Below, one piece after another: positions 5,182 to 16,513 of a stretch of DNA of 23,869 bases. This DNA comes from a virus. The DNA lies in IMG/VR virus record IMGVR_UViG_3300011116_000615, positions 1-23,869 of that record. One strand, given 5' to 3'. The position numbers and the translations under genes were made by a program. Every line of letters starts with the position of its first letter. Position 1 is the stretch's first letter. The notes beneath the pieces are model-generated. The model worked only from the letters and a program-made list of their open reading frames with translations. It had not been told where the DNA came from and did not search any database.

Positions 5182-6126
5182 ATGAAAAAGAATTTTAACA
5201 ATCAGACTTTTGAATGGCTATTTAATGACATCGCATCATCCATGCCAAAGATTATTTTTGTAGGTATAATTTTAACCTACCTTATCACAGCAGTACTTAA
5301 CGTGTATTTCCTTCCCCTTCCCCTTTTGCTTTCTATCCCTGCATCTCTCATGTTGCAGTTCGGCAGGTTCGCCATTGTATTTATTGACTTTTTAAATCCA
5401 AGTGAAAAACGCTCACCTTACCCTGCCAAAGTTGCGGCAGGTGCCACCGTAGTAGCATTGTTGGAATTGTATTTTTCAATTCAAGGCCAGGCAACAGGTG
5501 CGGAGTTTTATGCTATGTTTATTTTTATTAGCACTGTTATTTGCTTTGGATATTTCTTAGAAATACAATTCATCGAGAAAGGCATAGAAGCTTATGGTAT
5601 TGGCGTTAAAACACCAAGGAAGCGCAATACTACCAAAGCAAGTAAAGAGCCTGTTAGAATGAATCCTACAGTGCGTAGCGTTCAATTAGCCTTAGCTATC
5701 ATGTTAGTATTAGCTGTAACTACGGTAAATGGACAGAACAATCACTTTATGGCATATAATACCATGAGCCTTGAAAAGATAGGAAATAAGATGCTGGAAA
5801 GGTCTTATTATAGTGAAGCTGATAATAGCTATACAGTGGATACTATTCACTATGATATGTTATCCGGAATAAACTTGTGGGATGGCTATTCCAGGACAAC
5901 TTATGATAATTGCCTTTTTATGACTTATGGCACTCAAAATTTAATGTATTTCCCATTGATGGAATTATGGAAATATGGTAAAAAATATTATGACTATCAT
6001 GATTTACTTAAATTTGTAAGTAAATACGTTAAACGTAACTTCTTAAATAAAAAGATAAATTATGATGAAATTCATAGGCATCGATCCAGCCATGAGACTA
6101 AATGGGTTAGCAGTATGCGTGATTGA
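5182..6126 (+). CDS. Five-span membrane protein with C-terminal soluble domain, 314 aa
   Basis: Hydrophobic segments lie near residues 23-47, 48-70, 84-102, 109-128 and 165-184, the last preceded by a basic linker (KTPRKRNTTKASK). After this comes a 130-residue polar, Tyr-rich domain containing LWDGYSRTTYDNCLFMTYG. The fifth segment, QLALAIMLVLAVTTVNGQ, resembles a signal-peptide core. The gene begins a new transcription unit after the terminator and promoter candidate, behind CACCACCACAAA. Its 3' end overlaps the resolvase gene by 65 bases, unusually long for this window, so the last 22 residues may reflect a frameshift or a lost stop. I do not recognise the family. A role in altering the host envelope or excluding other phages would be speculation. 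Confidence 0.75.
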   Translation: MKKNFNNQTFEWLFNDIASSMPKIIFVGIILTYLITAVLNVYFLPLPLLLSIPASLMLQFGRFAIVFIDFLNPSEKRSPYPAKVAAGATVVALLELYFSIQGQATGAEFYAMFIFISTVICFGYFLEIQFIEKGIEAYGIGVKTPRKRNTTKASKEPVRMNPTVRSVQLALAIMLVLAVTTVNGQNNHFMAYNTMSLEKIGNKMLERSYYSEADNSYTVDTIHYDMLSGINLWDGYSRTTYDNCLFMTYGTQNLMYFPLMELWKYGKKYYDYHDLLKFVSKYVKRNFLNKKINYDEIHRHRSSHETKWVSSMRD

Positions 6127-7016: not shown

Positions 7017-7676
7017 TTACCATTCCACACCTTCCTTAATAGCATATTCAAGAATGCCTTTTGCGTGAGCTTTAGCTATTGCCTCCTGCCATTCTCTGTC
7101 AATCATTAATACAGCATCGTTATAATTGGTAAAGAATCCATTCTCAGTCAACACTGCTGGCACCTTTGTTGCAGTAAGCATTTGAAACCTTGCCTCTCTA
7201 TCTAAGTCACCGTCGGAGTAATCATGTCTATGTATCCATCCTGGTGTAGCATCTTTTATTTCATGACCTATCAATGTAGCAAGGAGATCTGATTTCGTTT
7301 CACCTGGAGAGGTAAACACTTCCCATCCTCTGGCAGTAGTAGATGATGCTGCATTGCCATGAATAGAAACAAGGACAGTTGACTTGCCAAGTGTTGAATA
7401 GCTATTTACAAGCTGACATCTTTTATTAAGTGATGTGTCATTAATTGGCTCATAGACTGGTTTAACCTGGAAGCCATAATCAAGGAGGAACTGCTCTAAG
7501 AAATTGGCAACAGATCGATTAAACACACCTTCAAAAAACCATCCGTAAGAATGGAATTTTCCTTGCCTGTGTTGGAAACATTTAGATGGATAGGTAACAT
7601 ATTTATCCGGCCCTATTCCTTTTCTTAGCCCACCATGCCCAGCATCCACACAGACTACAAATTCATTTGCTTTCAT
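7017..7676 (-). CDS. Endolysin: N-acetylmuramoyl-L-alanine amidase (Amidase_3)
   Basis: The 219-aa protein has the zinc amidase motifs in order: VDAGHGG (H14), FFEGVFNRSVA (E49), VLVSIHGNA (H106) and the catalytic glutamate in LTENGFFTN (E178). Amidase_3 enzymes cut the bond between N-acetylmuramic acid and L-alanine in peptidoglycan. There is no N-terminal signal peptide, so release through the holin encoded two genes upstream in the transcript is expected. No cell-wall-binding domain follows the catalytic domain, as is common for phages of Gram-negative hosts. It is the last gene of the leftward late block and ends against the convergent terminator. A stem-loop lies 16 bases before its ATG. 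Confidence 0.92.
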   Translation of the reverse strand: MKANEFVVCVDAGHGGLRKGIGPDKYVTYPSKCFQHRQGKFHSYGWFFEGVFNRSVANFLEQFLLDYGFQVKPVYEPINDTSLNKRCQLVNSYSTLGKSTVLVSIHGNAASSTTARGWEVFTSPGETKSDLLATLIGHEIKDATPGWIHRHDYSDGDLDREARFQMLTATKVPAVLTENGFFTNYNDAVLMIDREWQEAIAKAHAKGILEYAIKEGVEW

Positions 7677-8060: not shown

Positions 8061-8465
8061 TTAACGATTAAAAAATCTTGTAATTAAAACGCCAAGGTTT
8101 ACGCCTGTAATGCGCTTAATATTTTCAGCAATAGAATAAAGCTCCACCGTTGCAATTAAAAACGCTGCCATGTACGTTATGTTAAATGGAAGAGAAAAAG
8201 TATTTCTTGCACCCTCGAATATAAGGATGCCACAAAAATACACAACTATCTTTTCCATTGTTCGGTAAAGCCCTTTGCTATTTATCTTTTGCTGCTCTTT
8301 CTTTGCTGCGATTATTCCGGTTCCCATATCCGCAAAAACCACAAAGATTGTAAAAATCAAAAATCCCTTTATTGGTATGAAGAAAGAAAAAATATATCCA
8401 CAGCAAATCGCGTATGTTATTTTCTCCCACCCAAGGTGCAAAAAGTTGATTAACGTTGCTTTCAT
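8061..8465 (-). CDS. Phage holin (toxin-secretion/phage lysis holin family, Phage_holin_4)
   Basis: Three to four membrane segments are visible in 134 aa (around YAICCGYIFSFFIPI, FLIFTIFVVFADMG, IVVYFCGILIF and YMAAFLIATVEL). The pattern ADMGTGIIAAKKEQQKINSK followed by RTMEKIVVYF and IAENIKRITG is characteristic of the Phage_holin_4_1 family. Holins make holes in the inner membrane at a set time and let the endolysin reach peptidoglycan. Its ATG overlaps the stop of the exported protein gene as TAATG. The amidase lies downstream in the same transcript, completing the lysis pair. Confidence 0.92.
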   Translation of the reverse strand: MKATLINFLHLGWEKITYAICCGYIFSFFIPIKGFLIFTIFVVFADMGTGIIAAKKEQQKINSKGLYRTMEKIVVYFCGILIFEGARNTFSLPFNITYMAAFLIATVELYSIAENIKRITGVNLGVLITRFFNR

Positions 8466-9067
8466 TATTCCTTTTTTATTAGCCTAACATCATTATCCAC
8501 GGTTGCAAATTTACCGTTAGCAAATTTGTATAAGTCGTATTTGACACCATTAAATGAAAAGCTAATTTGGTTTGTAAAAGTCGAGAGTAATAGGTTGGTG
8601 GAAATCGTATATACTTTGCCGTTATCAGGATTAAATATTAATCTTTTATTAGCATTCAACTGTATTTCACCAAGGATATTTTCACCTTTAAAATTCAATG
8701 TCCAATCACCAAGGAAAGCAGTTGAATCACGGAGTGCCGTTGATGTATATACAGGTCTGCCGCTTATCTGCTGGTGCAAATTGTTGTAATAATTAATACG
8801 CTTAACCGCTTTACTTTTTAAAATCAATGGCTTTGCATGAATGGCTAATGTGTTGCTTTGCCTTTCAGCATCGGTAACAAGGCTTTGAATGGCTGTTAAG
8901 CTATCCCCAAGTATTTGTTTATTTCCCGTTATCGTGCTATCGCTGAATGTAGTCATAGTAACAATGTAATAAATGTTACCTTGCTTTTGAATGTACACCG
9001 TATCGGTAACAACGTCTTGCGAAATAGCAAGAAAAGGAATGAGTAAAAAGAAAAGTATTTTTTTCAT
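8465..9067 (-). CDS. Exported protein of the tail-fibre/lysis region, 200 aa
   Basis: A clear signal peptide, MKKILFFLLIPFLAISQ, opens the protein, with likely cleavage after residue 16 or 17 and no lipobox Cys. A short helical section (about residues 52-100) follows, then a beta-rich C-terminal half with DWTLNFKGENILGEIQLN and ISFSFNGVKYDLYKF. It lies between the chaperone-tipped fibre and the holin, with one base separating it from the fibre stop. I do not recognise a family. It might be a fibre accessory protein or act in the periplasm at lysis. The signal peptide is unusual for a phage late protein and matches that of the adjacent fibre gene in style. Confidence 0.8.
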   Translation of the reverse strand: MKKILFFLLIPFLAISQDVVTDTVYIQKQGNIYYIVTMTTFSDSTITGNKQILGDSLTAIQSLVTDAERQSNTLAIHAKPLILKSKAVKRINYYNNLHQQISGRPVYTSTALRDSTAFLGDWTLNFKGENILGEIQLNANKRLIFNPDNGKVYTISTNLLLSTFTNQISFSFNGVKYDLYKFANGKFATVDNDVRLIKKE

Positions 9068-9068
9068 G

Positions 9069-10259
9069 TTATTTGTTTTCGAGGATTAAAATTCTTTGTT
9101 CAAGGGCCTTGATAAGGGCTTGTTGCTCCTGTATGGCTTTGGTTAAGATGGGTATTAAACTTTGATAATCAACGCCCATAAATTCATCAAAATGAACACT
9201 TTCAGGAATCAAAGTGCCAATGTCTTGAGCAATAAAACCAAGTTGTTGTTCACCGTTACTTTTATAAGTATATTTTACAGGCTGCATTTGAATAACCTCG
9301 TTTAAGCCATAATTTAAAGTTTGAATTTCATCTTTTAAATTATAATCAGACCTTGTCGTATATCCAGCCGCACTAACGCGCCCACCGACGTAAACGCTAT
9401 CAACAACGTGCAACTTATAACCACTTTGTGGAGTTGTCGTGCCAATGCCTACGTTGCCATTCCTATCAAATTTAACAATTTGCGAAAATGTTAGAGTGGC
9501 TCCTGCTCCTGAAGTATTATTTGATGATGTATAAAAATCATATTCTCCATCTATACATGCAAATCGAGTTGCATAACCATTCTGATAGTATTTAAATCCT
9601 CCTGAAAAATAACTATTTGTCCAAAATTCTCCTTGTGTTCCAAACCCAACAAAACTTGTACCAGCTAATAGTTGAATAGCTTTAAAATTAGTCCATGGAC
9701 TTGGAGAAACGCCAATACCTAAATTTCCATTTGCATCCAATGTCATTTTATTTGTTGTATTTGTTGAAAATCCAAGTGTGTTTGATGCAGGTAAATATAT
9801 TCCATTAGTTGGAATTGTTGAGCTTGTAGGTCTAAAATTTGCGCCTACAACTGCACTTGTAAATGTCTTATCTCCTCCAATGCTTTGCGTCGTTGTTAAA
9901 TCTACAAAGTTTTGCGTTGTGCTACCAGTTCCCCCATTTCCTAAAGGCAACACTCCCGTGACTTTTGTCGTTAAAGATAATTGCCCTTGCAAATTATTTA
10001 AGCTATCAACTACTCTATTCCATTTTGGCGTTGTTGATGCACGGTAAAGCCATATAGCTTCTGTAATTGTATCAAGAACAAGATAGGCAGATGTGTCTAA
10101 TTTACTTGTCATTAAATTAACCGTATCAGTTGTTCTTCCACGCCACACCAGCCCATCTGACGTTGTTTGTTCGCCCAGTGTTATCTTTTGATTTGCATTG
10201 CCTTGGTACTGTGCCAAAGCAAGGCAAGGGAAAAGGAGTAGGAAAAGGAGTTGTTTCAT
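9069..10259 (-). CDS. Tail fibre with C-terminal S74 intramolecular chaperone and a signal peptide, 396 aa
   Basis: The C terminus carries an intramolecular chaperone of endosialidase domain (peptidase S74). It shows TRSDYNLKDEI (302-312, with catalytic S304 and K309), PVKYTYK, QLGFIAQDIG (339-348) and a final coiled coil (about 372-395). Such domains trimerise fibres and then cut themselves off before the conserved Ser. The shaft includes NGNLGIGVSPSP and NGNVGIGTTTP, repeats typical of fibres. The start MKQLLFLLLFPCLALAQ is a good signal peptide, odd for a virion protein. Residues about 24-83 resemble a module in the next, larger fibre (shared QTTxDGLVWRG). Probably receptor-binding. Confidence 0.9.
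   Translation of the reverse strand: MKQLLFLLLFPCLALAQYQGNANQKITLGEQTTSDGLVWRGRTTDTVNLMTSKLDTSAYLVLDTITEAIWLYRASTTPKWNRVVDSLNNLQGQLSLTTKVTGVLPLGNGGTGSTTQNFVDLTTTQSIGGDKTFTSAVVGANFRPTSSTIPTNGIYLPASNTLGFSTNTTNKMTLDANGNLGIGVSPSPWTNFKAIQLLAGTSFVGFGTQGEFWTNSYFSGGFKYYQNGYATRFACIDGEYDFYTSSNNTSGAGATLTFSQIVKFDRNGNVGIGTTTPQSGYKLHVVDSVYVGGRVSAAGYTTRSDYNLKDEIQTLNYGLNEVIQMQPVKYTYKSNGEQQLGFIAQDIGTLIPESVHFDEFMGVDYQSLIPILTKAIQEQQALIKALEQRILILENK
10011..10190 (-). repeat. Fibre N-terminal module, copy 2 (in the 396-aa fibre)
   Basis: Residues 24-83 (KITLGEQTTSDGLVWRG, then LVLDT and WNRV) align with residues 72-128 of the 1216-aa fibre. In both proteins the module directly follows the hydrophobic export-like segment, so segment and module appear to have been copied together. 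Confidence 0.75.
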
Positions 10260-10276
10260 GTTTATGTTTTTAATAA

Positions 10277-13200
10277 TTAATTACCAGCCATTTTTTGCCA
10301 ATACGTAGAACCAGTACTAATAAGCGTACACCACTTTCCGGGCCCTGCTCCTAAAATTTGACTATTTATACTTCCATCTAATTGTTGAATATTAGTAGCA
10401 TTACTTGTAATTGAGCCATTTCCAATATTTAAAACATGTATTTCTCTACCCGGAAAATCTGAGGCAGTTGGCAAAGTAAATGTAGCAAGATCGGAACGTC
10501 CCCATCTTATCCAAGTATCATTATCTAATACAATATATGTAGCAGCACTTCCAGCAACGTATTTTCTTCTAATATATCCTTCTCTATTATCAATATCATT
10601 TTGCATAACTACATTTCCCGTAAACGTTTTATTCCCGGCAAAACTTTGAGTAGTTGTATTCACCACTCCCGATGCTCCTGTACCTGCATCAGCAATAGTT
10701 ATACTTGGTGTAGTTGTACCATTTGCTACTGATATAGGTAAAGTACCTGTAACATTTGTTACTGTGCCACTGCCCCCTGTTGCGCTCAATGTGCCGCTTG
10801 ACAAAGATAATCCGCTGCCTATTGTAACTGTGGCAAATCTATCCGTAGAAGATAAACCAGCAAGCCTTGTTGCTACATAGGTATAATCTTTAAATACTGC
10901 TCTCGCATTAAATTGTGTTATACCTTCAAATACCTTATCTCCGCTAAATTGTTGTGTACCACTTGCTGTTACTATTCCAGCTACACCAAAACCTGCATCT
11001 GCCACGCTAATAATTGGTGTAGTCGTTGGGTTGGCTACTAAAATAGCACCGCTACCGCTTACACTTGTGACTGTACCTGTACCTGCACCAATCGCTGTTC
11101 TCGTATCAGCTCCATTTAAAAGAGTGATTGTATTATCTGTATTTACTTTGATAAATTTTTCAGATACGCTATTGGTAAGTCCAAACAAAGATTTACCAAC
11201 TGCCGTCGCTCCAAAATTAGTCAATGCACCGTCGGCTGTTGTTGCACCTGTACCACCATTTAACAAAGGTAAAGCAGTGCCACTATATGTCAATGCTAAA
11301 TTGCCGTTTATTGTTACAGGCGAACCGCTTACGGTAAATATTGAAGGTGCCGTTAATCCTACACTTGTAACTGTGCCAGTGCCTCCTCCTGATGTGTAAT
11401 TAGGTATATTTAAAGTAGTACCATTAAATGTAGCTAATCCAGTTGTTCCATTCGTGGTGAGTGAAATTGTATTTTGCTTGTTATTAAAAGTATTCCAATC
11501 TGCAGAAGTTAAAATACCACTTACAGTACTACTCGCATTACTTAAAGCATTTTGCTTATTATTAAATGTAGTCCAATCCGTAGAAGTCAAATAACCATTT
11601 ACGCTCCCAGTAGCTGCATTTATTGATAAAATAGGCGTAGTTGTTTTATTGGTAACCGAAATTGGCGTACCAACAGCCGCATCTACCTCTGTAACTGTAC
11701 CTGCACCAATGGCACTTCTAAAAGAAGCTGCTGATAATGCCGTGACTGTATTATCCGCATTAAATCGAGGGAAAGAAATAGTAGATGGATTAGTTAAAGT
11801 AAACATTGATTGCCCTATGGTTGTACCTCCTAAACTTGTTCGCCCTGTCGCTGCTACAAGTCCTGTACTTTCTCCATCCCATTTTAACCTATCTGTAAAT
11901 GCTATATTCCAATTACTTGAATTGTTTGGAATAGATGATGTCCAAGTTGTCCCGGTGCTTAAAGCTATACCTGCCTCTGGATATACAGGATTTGCTGTTT
12001 GTGAAACGCCTGCAGAACCAATGCCAGATACTGTGACTAAAGTATAGTTTTCACCTACTTTATAAGATGTAGCTGCTATTTTAATTTTATTTGTATCAAT
12101 AACGGAGTATTGGTCATTTATAAGTAATTGTCCATTGCGAAAGAGTAATATAAATGCCCTTAATTGTATAGGAAATTTATTTGTAATTGTCCAAGTCAAT
12201 GTATCTGTTGTAACATTATTATATTCTTGCTTAAGGATTTTAATTGTGTCATTGCCAATTCTAACTTTTACAATGCTATCTCTAACATAATTGTAAACAG
12301 TATTAGAATCAACTCTTAAAGTTCCTGTTGTGGTAATACTTCCACCTGTTAAGCCGTATGCCGTTGCTACGCTTGTAACGGTGCCATTTCCTTTAGCATT
12401 TATTCTATTGGACAAAGAAGCCGTGTCAGTTGTATTTAATTTACTTGCAAATCTTGAAGTAAGGTTCAATAAACTTGTATCCGTCAACTCCATTAAAACA
12501 GATAAATCAGCCGAAACCGTACCAGTCGTTGTTATTGGATTTGGGCTAACTGTAATTCCTGTCCCTGCTGAAATAGACGTTAAACTTCCCGATCCTCCAC
12601 CACTTCCTGCACCGCCACCACCTTTAGGAAATATAACAGTATAATTTTCGCCTATTTTATATGAGGTTGCCGCAATGACTACCGATGTTTTGGTAGGTAT
12701 AGTATATTGAGATGGCAGCAATATTTGACCATTACGGTAAACTTGAACAACCTTCACACCACCGGGAACTAATGTATCTGTTTGCGTCCAAGTTAATGTT
12801 GATGATTGAACGTTGCTAAAATCTTCACGAGCATAAAATCTTCCAGCAGTATCGACATAACTTTTTTTTGCATAGGTTGAAAGCATTGAAGCCGTGTCAC
12901 TCACCAAAAGTGCAGCCGTTGTATCTCGCCATAATCCACCTGAATAATATAAAGTAGCACCTGTAACTGGATTAGTTATTCGAGTGTCGTGAAGCTCGTC
13001 AAGCTCCTGCCCGTTACGAATTTTAACAAACAATTCTCCCGATCCGTTATTACTTTTGACACATACGCCAATATATACGCTGTGTTGTGGTGCTTGCGGC
13101 TTTGTGGAAGTCAATGCACCTGCCACCGTTGGCGATAAATACACCGCGCTATCTTCTGTTAAGGCTGATGTGTTTAAGCCTGTTATTAAGCCTTCGGTAA

Positions 13201-13927
13201 TAATAAAACCGCTTGCATTGTTAGCAATAGCCTCCGCGACCACGCCAAAAGTATTAGCCGAAAAAGCATCCGTTACCGCTAAGCCTTTTGCCACTGTTAT
13301 TCGATTTCCTTGACTTCCTGACAGATAAACCACATCGCCCTTATTAAGCGTTGCACCTGTTCTATTGTTCACTCGTTGGTGTAATTGTTGCCCTATAACA
13401 TTGGTAACATTACCACCTTTTAAGCCTTGTATCAAAGAACCCTGTGTATCATTGTATTCAACTTCACCTACTCCCACCGTGCCATTCTTTGTCGTGTTGA
13501 AGGTAATTGAATCAAAAGGCATAGTTAAACCTTGCGCACCGCCGACCAAGTTCCAAACATTGGAGGTAAAATCAAACGTATAAAATTTAAGGTTAACCGT
13601 ATCAAGAATCACCCACGCGTTTTGATTGTTTATCGGTTGAATGGAAGCCGTGTCAGACAATGCCCCACGCCAAACAAGCCCGTCGCCAGTAGTCTGGAAA
13701 CCTAATCTTTGTTTGTTGCCTGTATTTGGGAATTGGGCAATAGCAAATGTGGAGGCTAAAATAACAAAGGTAATAACAAGCCCTTGCCGTTTATTACCTA
13801 CTTTGTCAATAGCTTTTCCAATAAACTTTCGGCCTATTCCCATGACTAATTCGTTAGCTAAAACTTTGGCAATATCTCCCATTGCTTTTAAAAACTTTCT
13901 TTCCTTTTTTGGCTTTATTTCTTCCAT
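10277..13927 (-). CDS. Large modular tail fibre, 1216 aa
   Basis: Residues 1-48 are basic and helical. Residues 49-65 (GLVITFVILASTFAIAQ) form a membrane/signal-like segment. Residues 72-128 hold a module shared with the 396-aa fibre. Copies of a beta module lie at 374-435 and 571-635 (core VYRNGQ, SQYTI, KIGENYTV). A Gly-rich hinge (GGGGAGSGGGSGS) sits at 436-448. From about 515 onward come repeats beginning GTVTSV or a variant (515, 743, 851, 951, 1054), plus two LTSxDWxTFNNKQN units. The C-terminal section (about 1110-1216) is non-repetitive and probably forms the receptor-binding tip. The start forms TAATG with the adaptor gene. Host recognition is inferred from architecture and position. 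Confidence 0.88.
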   Translation of the reverse strand: MEEIKPKKERKFLKAMGDIAKVLANELVMGIGRKFIGKAIDKVGNKRQGLVITFVILASTFAIAQFPNTGNKQRLGFQTTGDGLVWRGALSDTASIQPINNQNAWVILDTVNLKFYTFDFTSNVWNLVGGAQGLTMPFDSITFNTTKNGTVGVGEVEYNDTQGSLIQGLKGGNVTNVIGQQLHQRVNNRTGATLNKGDVVYLSGSQGNRITVAKGLAVTDAFSANTFGVVAEAIANNASGFIITEGLITGLNTSALTEDSAVYLSPTVAGALTSTKPQAPQHSVYIGVCVKSNNGSGELFVKIRNGQELDELHDTRITNPVTGATLYYSGGLWRDTTAALLVSDTASMLSTYAKKSYVDTAGRFYAREDFSNVQSSTLTWTQTDTLVPGGVKVVQVYRNGQILLPSQYTIPTKTSVVIAATSYKIGENYTVIFPKGGGGAGSGGGSGSLTSISAGTGITVSPNPITTTGTVSADLSVLMELTDTSLLNLTSRFASKLNTTDTASLSNRINAKGNGTVTSVATAYGLTGGSITTTGTLRVDSNTVYNYVRDSIVKVRIGNDTIKILKQEYNNVTTDTLTWTITNKFPIQLRAFILLFRNGQLLINDQYSVIDTNKIKIAATSYKVGENYTLVTVSGIGSAGVSQTANPVYPEAGIALSTGTTWTSSIPNNSSNWNIAFTDRLKWDGESTGLVAATGRTSLGGTTIGQSMFTLTNPSTISFPRFNADNTVTALSAASFRSAIGAGTVTEVDAAVGTPISVTNKTTTPILSINAATGSVNGYLTSTDWTTFNNKQNALSNASSTVSGILTSADWNTFNNKQNTISLTTNGTTGLATFNGTTLNIPNYTSGGGTGTVTSVGLTAPSIFTVSGSPVTINGNLALTYSGTALPLLNGGTGATTADGALTNFGATAVGKSLFGLTNSVSEKFIKVNTDNTITLLNGADTRTAIGAGTGTVTSVSGSGAILVANPTTTPIISVADAGFGVAGIVTASGTQQFSGDKVFEGITQFNARAVFKDYTYVATRLAGLSSTDRFATVTIGSGLSLSSGTLSATGGSGTVTNVTGTLPISVANGTTTPSITIADAGTGASGVVNTTTQSFAGNKTFTGNVVMQNDIDNREGYIRRKYVAGSAATYIVLDNDTWIRWGRSDLATFTLPTASDFPGREIHVLNIGNGSITSNATNIQQLDGSINSQILGAGPGKWCTLISTGSTYWQKMAGN
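10628..11701 (-). repeat. Repeated GTVTSV beta-shaft units
   Basis: Within the large fibre, residues 743-1100 contain repeated units beginning GTVT(S/E/N)V at 743, 851, 951 and 1054, about 100 residues apart in the last three. Later parts such as SVANGTTTPSITIADAGTG and TTQSFAGNKTF recur in similar form. They read like tandem trimeric beta-shaft modules, which can expand or contract by recombination. Confidence 0.75.
11471..11590 (-). repeat. Tandem LTSxDWxTFNNKQN units in the fibre
   Basis: Two copies start at residues 780 and 806 of the large fibre, 26 residues apart: LTSTDWTTFNNKQN and LTSADWNTFNNKQN. The DNA is also visibly repeated (TTTTGCTTGTTATTAAA and TTTTGCTTATTATTAAA on the plus strand). 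Confidence 0.85.
12023..12217 (-). repeat. Beta module copy 2 (large fibre residues 571-635)
   Basis: Core positions DTLTWTI, LLFRNGQLLINDQYSV, IKIAATSYKVGENYTL match the other two copies at 12623-12808 and 13939-14133. The pattern is LTWT, then xxxNGQxL, xxQY(T/S), and G-x-NY-x-(V/L). Confidence 0.8.
12623..12808 (-). repeat. Beta module copy 1 (large fibre residues 374-435)
   Basis: Core positions STLTWTQ, VQVYRNGQILLPSQYTI and VIAATSYKIGENYTVIF. This copy lies just before the Gly-rich hinge. It shares IAATSYKxGENYT with copy 2, and LTWTQ and SQYTI with the copy in the adaptor protein. Confidence 0.8.
13544..13714 (-). repeat. Fibre N-terminal module, copy 1 (in the 1216-aa fibre)
   Basis: Residues 72-128 (KQRLGFQTTGDGLVWRG, then VILDT and WNLV) match the module just after the signal peptide of the 396-aa fibre. 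Seen directly by comparing the two translations. Confidence 0.75.
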
Positions 13928-14298
13928 TATACTATGTTTATTGCAAAGACAATATAATTACTGCCATCGTAATGTGTGTTTGAATCTATCGTGATCGTCG
14001 CAGGTGCCGTAATAGTATATTGACTATCTATTAATTTCTGCCCATTCTGATACACATGAACCGAAGCATTTAAGTTAGTCACTGGCAGTTTGCCATTGTT
14101 TTGTGTCCATGTTAATACATTGGAGGAAGTATTAAGAAATTCTTGACTAAAAATAGAAACAGCAGAGCCATTTACCGTCACATTATTTATCGTTTCAGTG
14201 ACATTATTATTTACCACTCCACCACTTCCGGCATTGTTTGCCACCTGGTTAAAGTCGCGAGGTTTTGATAATACTGTGCGTTCTGTGTAGTTAGGCAT
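13927..14298 (-). CDS. Fibre adaptor/baseplate protein, 123 aa, with one beta module
   Basis: The N-terminal 50 residues are polar and Asn/Val-rich (GGVVNNNVTETINNVTVNG). Residues 56-120 are a copy of the beta module found twice in the large fibre (VLTWTQ, VHVYQNGQKLIDSQYTI, GSNYIVFA). The gene lies between the tail hub and the large fibre, overlapping the hub gene by 8 bases and the fibre gene by one (TAATG). A linker between tail tip and fibre is a reasonable inference; no catalytic motif is seen. Confidence 0.75.
   Translation of the reverse strand: MPNYTERTVLSKPRDFNQVANNAGSGGVVNNNVTETINNVTVNGSAVSIFSQEFLNTSSNVLTWTQNNGKLPVTNLNASVHVYQNGQKLIDSQYTITAPATITIDSNTHYDGSNYIVFAINIV
13939..14133 (-). 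repeat. Beta module copy 3 (adaptor residues 56-120)
   Basis: This copy is in a different gene from copies 1 and 2 but keeps VLTWTQ, VYQNGQKLIDSQYTI and the closing GSNYIVF. That suggests a duplicated domain used both in the adaptor and inside the fibre. Confidence 0.8.
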
Positions 14299-16513
14299 CT
14301 AATTCTATTTTAAAGTAATCACCTTGCCAAATCTCTGTTTTTAAATCAAGACTACCTCTTTCAAAAACGTAATATCCAGATGAATATTCTATGACCTTGT
14401 GAGGAAGGTAAGGATTATCTACTGATAAATTTTGGAAAGGCATATCTACCATGCGTAGCTTTGGCGTGAGCTGACCGCGAATCACTTCGTTAACTAATAG
14501 CTGTGTGACGTTATTAAATCCCGATCCGCTGCCTACATCCCAACTGCTACTATTTTCGTAGGAACCTGATTCAAGAACTTTTAATCCTCCATCAGTTGTC
14601 TTGCTCGGCCCGTCACCAAGGTATGTATCAAGGCTAAATATTGTGGAAGATTTATCATCATTGTCCGAACCATATTCAAGAATGTCACTTTGTCCAGAGA
14701 CTGCACCTGTGGGAAGAAATTCAAGGTAATTATTGCTAAGCAAATAAGATACAGTAAAGTTTGATATTATACTACTTCCTGCCTCATTTCGCATTTGCTT
14801 TAACCTCATCTCCCATACATACTCCGCACTTTCCGGAATGTCCAATGTATCAAATGTGATGGTCTTATATGCAACAAAAGCAGCATCAGCCGTTATTGTT
14901 TCAGTGTTAAACTCATACTCATAAAAACTATTCTCCCACGTTGCAGGCTCTAATTGAAAATTAAATCCATTAGTATAGGTTACACCTCTTTTTAAATATT
15001 TATTTTCCTGTTTTACTTGTAATGATTTTATTTTGCCAGTAAATCCTGGCGATGATACACTATCTAATTTTAATGTATTTGTATTAGTAGATAAAATTAC
15101 ATACTCGTAATCGCCACTTTCAGTAATTGTTTTTGTTACTCCACCCAAACGTAATCTAAGGCTACCACTATTATTTATTTCAACTTTAATTTTTACATAA
15201 TATTTTCTTCCAGATGTAACTGTAAATGTAGTATAAAATGCTTCCGTAGCTATTAATGTACCTTCAAGTATTTTGTTATCAATTATCCATCCGCTGCCCA
15301 ATGTCCAGTTAGCAGATTCAAAACCTTGTAAAGGAAAGCTATTTATTATAGATGCTACCTTAACAGCAAATACAAATTGAAAAGGTTCAAAGTTTACTGG
15401 GTTTAAAGCCTGTGCGTAAAATCCAAGTATGCCTGTATAAGATAATCTAGCATCCGGATTAGAGGCATCTAAGGTCGGAGTAGTTGTAATTATCGGAGTG
15501 CTATTTGTTGCGTAGTTATATTCTACACCTGCTAATAAATTCTGTTTAGCAAAATGATTGTACCTTATAACAACATTTTTTAAAGCAGGATAGTAAGTCC
15601 ATTTACCACCGCTCAATCTCATTAAATCACTTCCTGGAAGATTAGTTTGAATATTAGATAGCGTTAAATCTGCTGTAAATGTACCAGCTACTTGTACGCC
15701 AAAAGCAGTATATTTAAAGTATCTTTTAGTTGCAGGAGTTCTTGAATATTCATTGACTTGAATAAACCAATATTGATTCCCACTAAATAATAATCTCGCT
15801 CCAAATGTTTGACAAATTTTCTTTAAAACATCGTAGCAACTTTGATATACATAATTGCTTTTAGTGTCTTTGTGATAAAATGCTCTATGTTGTATGACTG
15901 TCAATAATGAGTAATCACTATTTACACTATATGCCGTTGTGTTTTCATGCCAGTTAAAAATAGTATGTAATACAGGCAAATTATTTGCCACCAAGTTATC
16001 CTGAACAAAATCCAGTTGATTAAGGCAATTTAAAATATGCTGTACAACAGTGTCCTGCCCAATATAAGGCCCTACCGCGCTTTTGTAATCCAATGTCTTT
16101 AGCCAACCTAAGCCATCTATTGCAGATATTTGAGCCTGATAACCTATAACCAATGGCACATCTTCAAATTCTACTAAGTCGGTAACTATGTAGCCATACC
16201 ATTTGAAGGATACTGTTGTGTTATCATCTTCGTAGGCTGTGAGTTCCATTGTAAATCTTCCTTCAACTGCCAAGCCAATGTCAAGCAGAAGTGTCTGGAG
16301 ATTATTATTATTTATAAGTAAAGACAATGAACACCGCGAGCCAATGATAGGTGTAAACCTCTCCTGCCCTTGCTGACTTTCACTGTCATATTGCAGCTGC
16401 AAACCAATAGTATCAAAATTATAAGTCATACCGGAAAAGACCTTGTCTTTAATAGCAACTACTATTTTCCTGCCTTTCTCGTTATATACCGTTGTTTGAA
16501 ACCTTGCTGCCAT
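14291..16513 (-). CDS. Tail hub/tip protein with an inserted jelly-roll domain, 740 aa
   Basis: Directly after the tape measure gene in transcription order, this is the place of distal-tail and tail-associated (hub) proteins. The N-terminal 270 residues include MELTAYEDDNTTVSFKWYG and a helical AVGPYIGQDTVVQHILNCL, a pattern I associate with tail-tip proteins of Bacteroidota phages. Residues about 396-503 look like an inserted carbohydrate-binding-type jelly-roll (GFESANWTLGSGW, TVTSGRKYYVKIKV, LRLRLGGVTKTI, GFTGKIKSLQV). The last 200 residues are beta-rich. It forms TAATG with the tape measure stop. A role in tail tip assembly and host surface contact is inferred. No peptidase or glycosidase motif was found. 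Confidence 0.75.
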   Translation of the reverse strand: MAARFQTTVYNEKGRKIVVAIKDKVFSGMTYNFDTIGLQLQYDSESQQGQERFTPIIGSRCSLSLLINNNNLQTLLLDIGLAVEGRFTMELTAYEDDNTTVSFKWYGYIVTDLVEFEDVPLVIGYQAQISAIDGLGWLKTLDYKSAVGPYIGQDTVVQHILNCLNQLDFVQDNLVANNLPVLHTIFNWHENTTAYSVNSDYSLLTVIQHRAFYHKDTKSNYVYQSCYDVLKKICQTFGARLLFSGNQYWFIQVNEYSRTPATKRYFKYTAFGVQVAGTFTADLTLSNIQTNLPGSDLMRLSGGKWTYYPALKNVVIRYNHFAKQNLLAGVEYNYATNSTPIITTTPTLDASNPDARLSYTGILGFYAQALNPVNFEPFQFVFAVKVASIINSFPLQGFESANWTLGSGWIIDNKILEGTLIATEAFYTTFTVTSGRKYYVKIKVEINNSGSLRLRLGGVTKTITESGDYEYVILSTNTNTLKLDSVSSPGFTGKIKSLQVKQENKYLKRGVTYTNGFNFQLEPATWENSFYEYEFNTETITADAAFVAYKTITFDTLDIPESAEYVWEMRLKQMRNEAGSSIISNFTVSYLLSNNYLEFLPTGAVSGQSDILEYGSDNDDKSSTIFSLDTYLGDGPSKTTDGGLKVLESGSYENSSSWDVGSGSGFNNVTQLLVNEVIRGQLTPKLRMVDMPFQNLSVDNPYLPHKVIEYSSGYYVFERGSLDLKTEIWQGDYFKIELDA

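Follow-up and report, generated by a model that had tools for sequence, protein, structure and literature searches.

Two tail fibres of a tailed phage, here F1216 and F396, and a 200-aa partner encoded beside them carry conserved, selected segments that read as signal peptides of the Bacteroidetes Q-rule type. We assign a probability of roughly 0.55 to the reading that the fibres pass through Sec, undergo cleavage, fold together with exported partners and become attached to the virion outside the cytoplasm, probably when the cell lyses. In the textbook view, tailed phages are fully assembled in the cytoplasm.

The window, that is the whole stretch of DNA analysed, corresponds to a linear IMG/VR virus record; it has 23,869 bases and 33 genes. 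Its minus-strand late genes start with prohead protease, HK97-type capsid, connectors, tail tube and tape measure, and continue after the tape measure with genes for a 740-aa and a 123-aa protein, F1216, F396, the 200-aa partner, holin, a 97-aa protein and amidase (Table 1). As expected of siphophage tail fibres, the two fibre genes lie after the tape measure and tail tip and show similarity to fibre families. Profile and PHROG family searches with the 740-aa protein gave no match. We infer a Bacteroidota host; the strongest match of the tape measure among those listed was Cellulophaga phage phi39:1, and a second backbone carrying the same fibre-lysis cassette (backbone B, see below) encodes DUF6712 and a capsid protein related to Bacteroides phage.

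Table 1. Features of the fibre and lysis region in the window, with predicted signal segments and domains.
Feature	Position	Strand	Basis or remark
F1216, 1216-aa tail fibre with internal Q-rule signal segment	10277..13927	-	ORF; similar at residues 139-333 to tail-fibre domains found in other phages
F1216 basic leader, 48 residues	13784..13927	-	Purifying selection; type tracks virion backbone
F1216 hydrophobic h/c region, residues 49-64, predicted cleavage between AIA and Q	13736..13783	-	Signal rule, relatives
F1216 predicted mature N-terminal module, Q65 onward, QTTGDGLVWRG	13544..13735	-	
F1216 tail-fibre domain, residues 139-333	12929..13513	-	Common to signal-less fibres/tail proteins of Pseudomonas, Nitrincola and Acinetobacter phages
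F1216 first NGQ domain, residues 368-431	12635..12826	-	Resembles 123-aa tail-tip protein
F1216 second NGQ domain, residues 544-634	12026..12298	-	
F396, 396-aa tail fibre with C-terminal S74 chaperone	9069..10259	-	PF13884, E = 3.2e-10; PHROG tail fiber
F396 predicted signal peptide, MKQLLFLLLFPCLALA before Q	10212..10259	-	Signal rule, relatives
F396 predicted mature N-terminal module, residues 17-83	10011..10211	-	
F396 Peptidase_S74 intramolecular chaperone domain, residues 304-355	9195..9350	-	
200-aa partner gene, predicted exported	8465..9067	-	Type tracks C-terminal class of the preceding fibre
200-aa partner predicted signal peptide, MKKILFFLLIPFLAIS before Q	9020..9067	-	Signal rule, relatives
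123-aa signal-less putative tail-tip protein, one NGQ domain	13927..14298	-	Candidate docking element
740-aa putative tail-tip protein, without signal	14291..16513	-	Role from position after tape measure
Holin	8061..8465	-	PF05105
Amidase endolysin	7017..7676	-	PF01520

The original prediction had placed a hydrophobic or signal segment in each of the three proteins, and all of them are present as written in the ORF translations. F396 begins with MKQLLFLLLFPCLALAQ, the 200-aa protein, whose ORF lies just outside the interval that the prediction covered, begins with MKKILFFLLIPFLAISQ, and F1216 has GLVITFVILASTFAIAQ at residues 49–65, behind its basic leader. Each segment ends in A-x-A/S followed by Gln, which fits the Bacteroidetes Q-rule: most signal peptidase I (SPI) substrates in Bacteroidetes carry Gln at +1, which is turned into pyroglutamate (PMC5837995). 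Using a signal rule of our own (basic n-region, hydrophobic core, [small]-x-[AGSNC], then Q), the only hits among the 33 window genes were F396, F1216 and the 200-aa protein, all three adjacent. Shuffled sequences gave a chance rate of 0.25–0.31% per protein, corresponding to approximately 0.1 expected hits in the window against the three found. By this rule the segments resemble known Q-rule SPI substrates in their basic n-region, uncharged hydrophobic core, small residue at −1 and Gln at +1; those substrates are, however, known for cellular proteins (PMC5837995), and the 48-residue leader of F1216 is unusually long. Lipoprotein (SPII) substrates were considered and rejected, as the +1 residue is Gln in all three proteins, with no lipobox Cys. 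A type IX secretion C-terminal sorting domain gave no NCBIfam match up to E = 0.1. The AF2 model of the F1216 N-terminus is of low confidence (52) and consists of just a long leader helix and a hydrophobic helix.

A scan of IMG/VR for the fibre module matched 356 viral loci, 80 of which were kept, with 85 distinct module-bearing ORFs and a complete N-terminus in 83. The hydrophobic segment, with A or G before Q, is kept in 83/83 of these distinct complete fibre N-termini, collected with two search patterns, one of which contains AQ and could favour AQ hits and the other of which does not. The QTTxDGLVWRG module follows the segment directly in both fibres, as originally described, and does so in every relative. 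The related suggestion that the pair moves as one unit held in part: the module after the cleavage site is common to all, but the leader and hydrophobic stretch of the F1216 family form two types that track the virion backbone. In relatives of F1216, substitutions in the h-region are between hydrophobic residues, with only A/G at −1 and always Q at +1. Estimates of dN/dS were 0.06–0.14 for the leader, 0.22–0.25 for the h/c-region and 0.06–0.13 for the mature module, hence leader and module are constrained and the h-region evolves faster, which is the pattern of a signal peptide. Chance hydrophobic N-termini or wrongly placed start codons are an extremely improbable source of these segments, given a shuffle rate of 0.3% per protein, the complete conservation among relatives and a leader under purifying selection.

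The same residues bear on whether the segments are cleaved at all. Uncleaved N-termini might form a hydrophobic bundle that anchors the fibre in the tail tip or contacts the host membrane at ejection, with no export involved. Tail fibres are normally assembled in the cytoplasm, which would suit an anchor, as would the conserved F1216 leader whose type tracks the virion backbone and the annotation of comparable proteins of isolates as virion components (see below). An anchor, however, needs neither A/G at −1 nor Q at +1, and both are fixed across diverged h-regions; furthermore, the partner, which is not a fibre, carries a signal of this kind too, and segments of 14–18 residues with a basic start resemble signal peptides, not membrane spans. 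This explanation, one of those offered originally, leaves the fixed small −1 residue and the +1 Gln unaccounted for and we consider it improbable.

A further proposal, that host envelope genes were recruited into fibres together with their own signals, draws on the resemblance of these signals to host Q-rule signals. It fared poorly against the distribution of the module, as the scan of GTDB genomes gave 0 relatives against the 356 viral loci; a GTDB scan with the 200-aa protein also found no relative. Residues 139–333 of F1216 match fibre and tail proteins of other phages, and the N-termini of the four checked (4/4) are without a signal. The F1216 body domain is a phage fibre domain that also occurs without a signal in phages of other phyla, and host recruitment is very unlikely.

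The gene between F396 and holin encodes a Q-rule signal in 59/59 distinct fibre–partner pairs extracted by script, with a few loci without such an ORF. In one of these, L068 (6004–6634), the fibre is short (220 aa) and differs in its C-terminal type, and the holin is not preceded by a partner gene. The −1 residue of partners is S, A, G or C, and across 41 aligned partners, down to 22% identity to that of the window, invariance is limited to M1, the +1 Q and a single G. Partners of fibres of one C-terminal class average 79% identity, against 26% for partners of fibres of different classes, and no label shuffle of 1000 reached this difference. As a control, identity of the adjacent holin was 70% for the same fibre class and 71% for different classes, and the association of partner and class holds whether or not the adjoining holins are near-identical. 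One partner is similar across fibre classes (up to 96%); it is probably that of L063, where the fibre ORF seems to be split. Single-linkage clustering at E 1e-3 was discarded, having chained all partners into one family and brought out no pattern. As the class is that of the fibre C-terminal end while the fibre middle varies, the partner more probably serves in folding or at the tip than as a blocker of receptors. An AF2 model of the window's partner (mean pLDDT 76, pTM 0.43) had no convincing PDB or viral fold match.

Predicted export of the three proteins is well supported, because a Q-rule signal occurs in every relative, a partner gene that is itself predicted to be exported accompanies the fibres, and the segments evolve as signal peptides do.

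We found the fibre-lysis cassette on two tailed-phage backbones that are unrelated to each other. L014 and its relatives carry the same cassette (F1216 73%, holin 96% and 97-aa protein 98% identical) on backbone B, where the morphogenesis module is a different one: its protease is of the ClpP type, its portal and capsid proteins differ, and it includes DUF6712. The head and tail proteins of the window found no match in the L014-type backbone apart from a shared NGQ domain. This domain is a separate 123-aa gene in the window, whereas in backbone B it forms the C-terminal end of an 811-aa protein (L103, 12838–15273), with 47.5% identity between the two over 80 aa (residues 724–803 of the 811-aa protein). 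The NGQ-domain proteins are hence candidates for a common dock for the fibre. The tracking of backbone by F1216 leader type may reflect linkage, or a leader that contacts the virion.

Support for signal-bearing fibres ending in virions comes by analogy, from MS/MS annotations of Cellulophaga phage isolates and not from this phage. Signals before Gln coincide with GenBank notes of virion MS/MS in phi10:1 (gp91–94), phi39:1 (gp25–26) and phi19:1 (gp101–103); these are notes on other phages, and membrane material purified along with the virions could have contained exported proteins. A further protein with such a note, phi19:1 gp104, has a signal-like N-terminus with no +1 Q. In phi10:1, phi39:1 and phi18:1 together, 6 of 35 MS-annotated proteins examined qualify as signal-bearing, all after the tape measure. 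Predicted post-cleavage N-terminal peptides include QTVEGTVGSDGSLIPYNVSGGLDETAVDTK (phi10:1 gp94), QVEQVEAVVLAK (phi39:1 gp25) and QGVAPLVDQVR (phi19:1 gp101).

The Cellulophaga cassettes (phi10:1, phi19:1, phi39:1, phi19:3, phi46:3, phi13:2 and Ingeline) likewise consist of consecutive signal-bearing fibre or spike genes, nearly all with +1 Gln. They also resemble the window's cassette in that signal and N-module are exchanged among bodies and one cassette occurs on unrelated virions; several of their products are MS/MS-annotated virion proteins. Their fibres and pectate-lyase spikes differ in that no sequence relation to F1216 or F396 was found, and the GenBank annotation rows examined make no mention of signals. 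Phages of the Assiduviridae and Pachyviridae share a 777-aa spike at 97% identity, with spike cassettes reaching up to 97% identity across these families and 49% relatives in Duneviridae. In phi46:3, gp81 has a different signal and N-module on a 93% identical spike body, and phi17:2 has a signal-less N-terminus on a homologous spike body (49.5% identical). Fibres of phi18:1, phi38:1, 11b, P2559Y, P12024L, RAP44 and B124-14 carry no such signal. With so many Bacteroidota phage fibres lacking the signal, export is not required in general, and appears to be recurrent rather than universal.

Exported proteins could instead have their function in the periplasm or on the cell surface, late in infection, and never join a virion; they might, for example, mask receptors, block superinfection or keep progeny from adhering to debris. 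The presence of Q-rule signals and the location beside lysis genes are compatible with this, and lambda Lom is an exported non-virion protein encoded between tail-fibre genes. Five genes of P. gingivalis phages with Q-rule signals and unknown function were interpreted in 2023 as modifiers of the host surface (PMC10367356); these are phage genes too, but here the signals are on fibres and their partner. The fibre domains and S74 chaperone point the other way, as do the MS/MS annotation of signal-bearing fibres and spikes as virion components in three isolates, the lack of any other recognised fibre gene within the window, and a partner that tracks the fibre C-terminal class though the fibre middle varies. 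Since MS/MS-annotated virion proteins of isolates bear the same kind of signal, export followed by incorporation into the virion fits better than a purely non-virion role, which we regard as unlikely. The periplasmic or surface role originally suggested is therefore retained as far as export is concerned, which is likely, and less so as an exclusively non-virion function.

Under extracytoplasmic assembly, the reading we prefer, F396, F1216 and the 200-aa partner would enter the host Sec and SPI route, be cleaved before Gln and have this residue cyclised to pyroglutamate. Folding would then take place in the periplasm, aided by the S74 domain and the exported partner, and the fibre would meet the virion outside the cytoplasm, most simply once holin and amidase open the cell. 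The fibre would dock on tail-tip proteins that carry an NGQ domain but no signal: in the window the 123-aa protein, in backbone B the C-terminal end of the 811-aa protein. The signals would speak against assembly of these fibres in the cytoplasm. Sec export with joining outside the cytoplasm would account for the signals and the exported partner as well as for the MS/MS notes. It would likewise account for cassettes shared between virions, as docking outside the cytoplasm could let one fibre cassette serve unrelated virion backbones. The occurrence of such signals on virion proteins of unrelated isolates suggests that some tailed phages may route fibres through host secretion. We put at about even the chances that in several tailed Bacteroidota phage families fibres and partners pass through Sec, are cleaved, pyroglutamylated and matured in the periplasm, and are joined to the tail at or after lysis.

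Among known systems, S74 (endosialidase-chaperone) tail fibres share a C-terminal PF13884 domain with F396 only, above the curated cutoff; the usual S74 fibres, such as phi38:1 gp85, have no export signal, whereas F396 does. The filamentous phage coat proteins pIII and pVIII are virion proteins with cleaved Sec signals, and filamentous virions assemble at the membrane without lysis. The window differs in encoding a tailed phage, with HK97-type capsid, tape measure, holin and amidase. In the searchable literature, which takes in few subscription papers, no earlier report of such signals on tail fibres was found. If the preferred reading is true, Sec-routed fibres would add an extracytoplasmic maturation step to tailed-phage assembly. 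Receptor-binding proteins would then be open to folding and modification in the host periplasm, and adsorption would have glutaminyl cyclase and signal peptidase among its host factors. It would also help to explain near-identical spike cassettes on unrelated virions.

A 314-aa multi-pass protein of the window (5182–6126, plus strand) has an internal hydrophobic stretch followed by TTVNGQ that resembles a second internal Q-rule site; its L104 homologue is only 182 aa long. A DUF4468 protein with a Q-rule signal adjoins the tape measure in Flavobacterium phage 6H (L113, 8153–8707). The Bacteroidetes O-glycosylation sequon, D[ST][AILVMT], occurs 20 times in the window's three signal proteins against approximately 7 expected, and is low in several Cellulophaga signal-bearing spikes.
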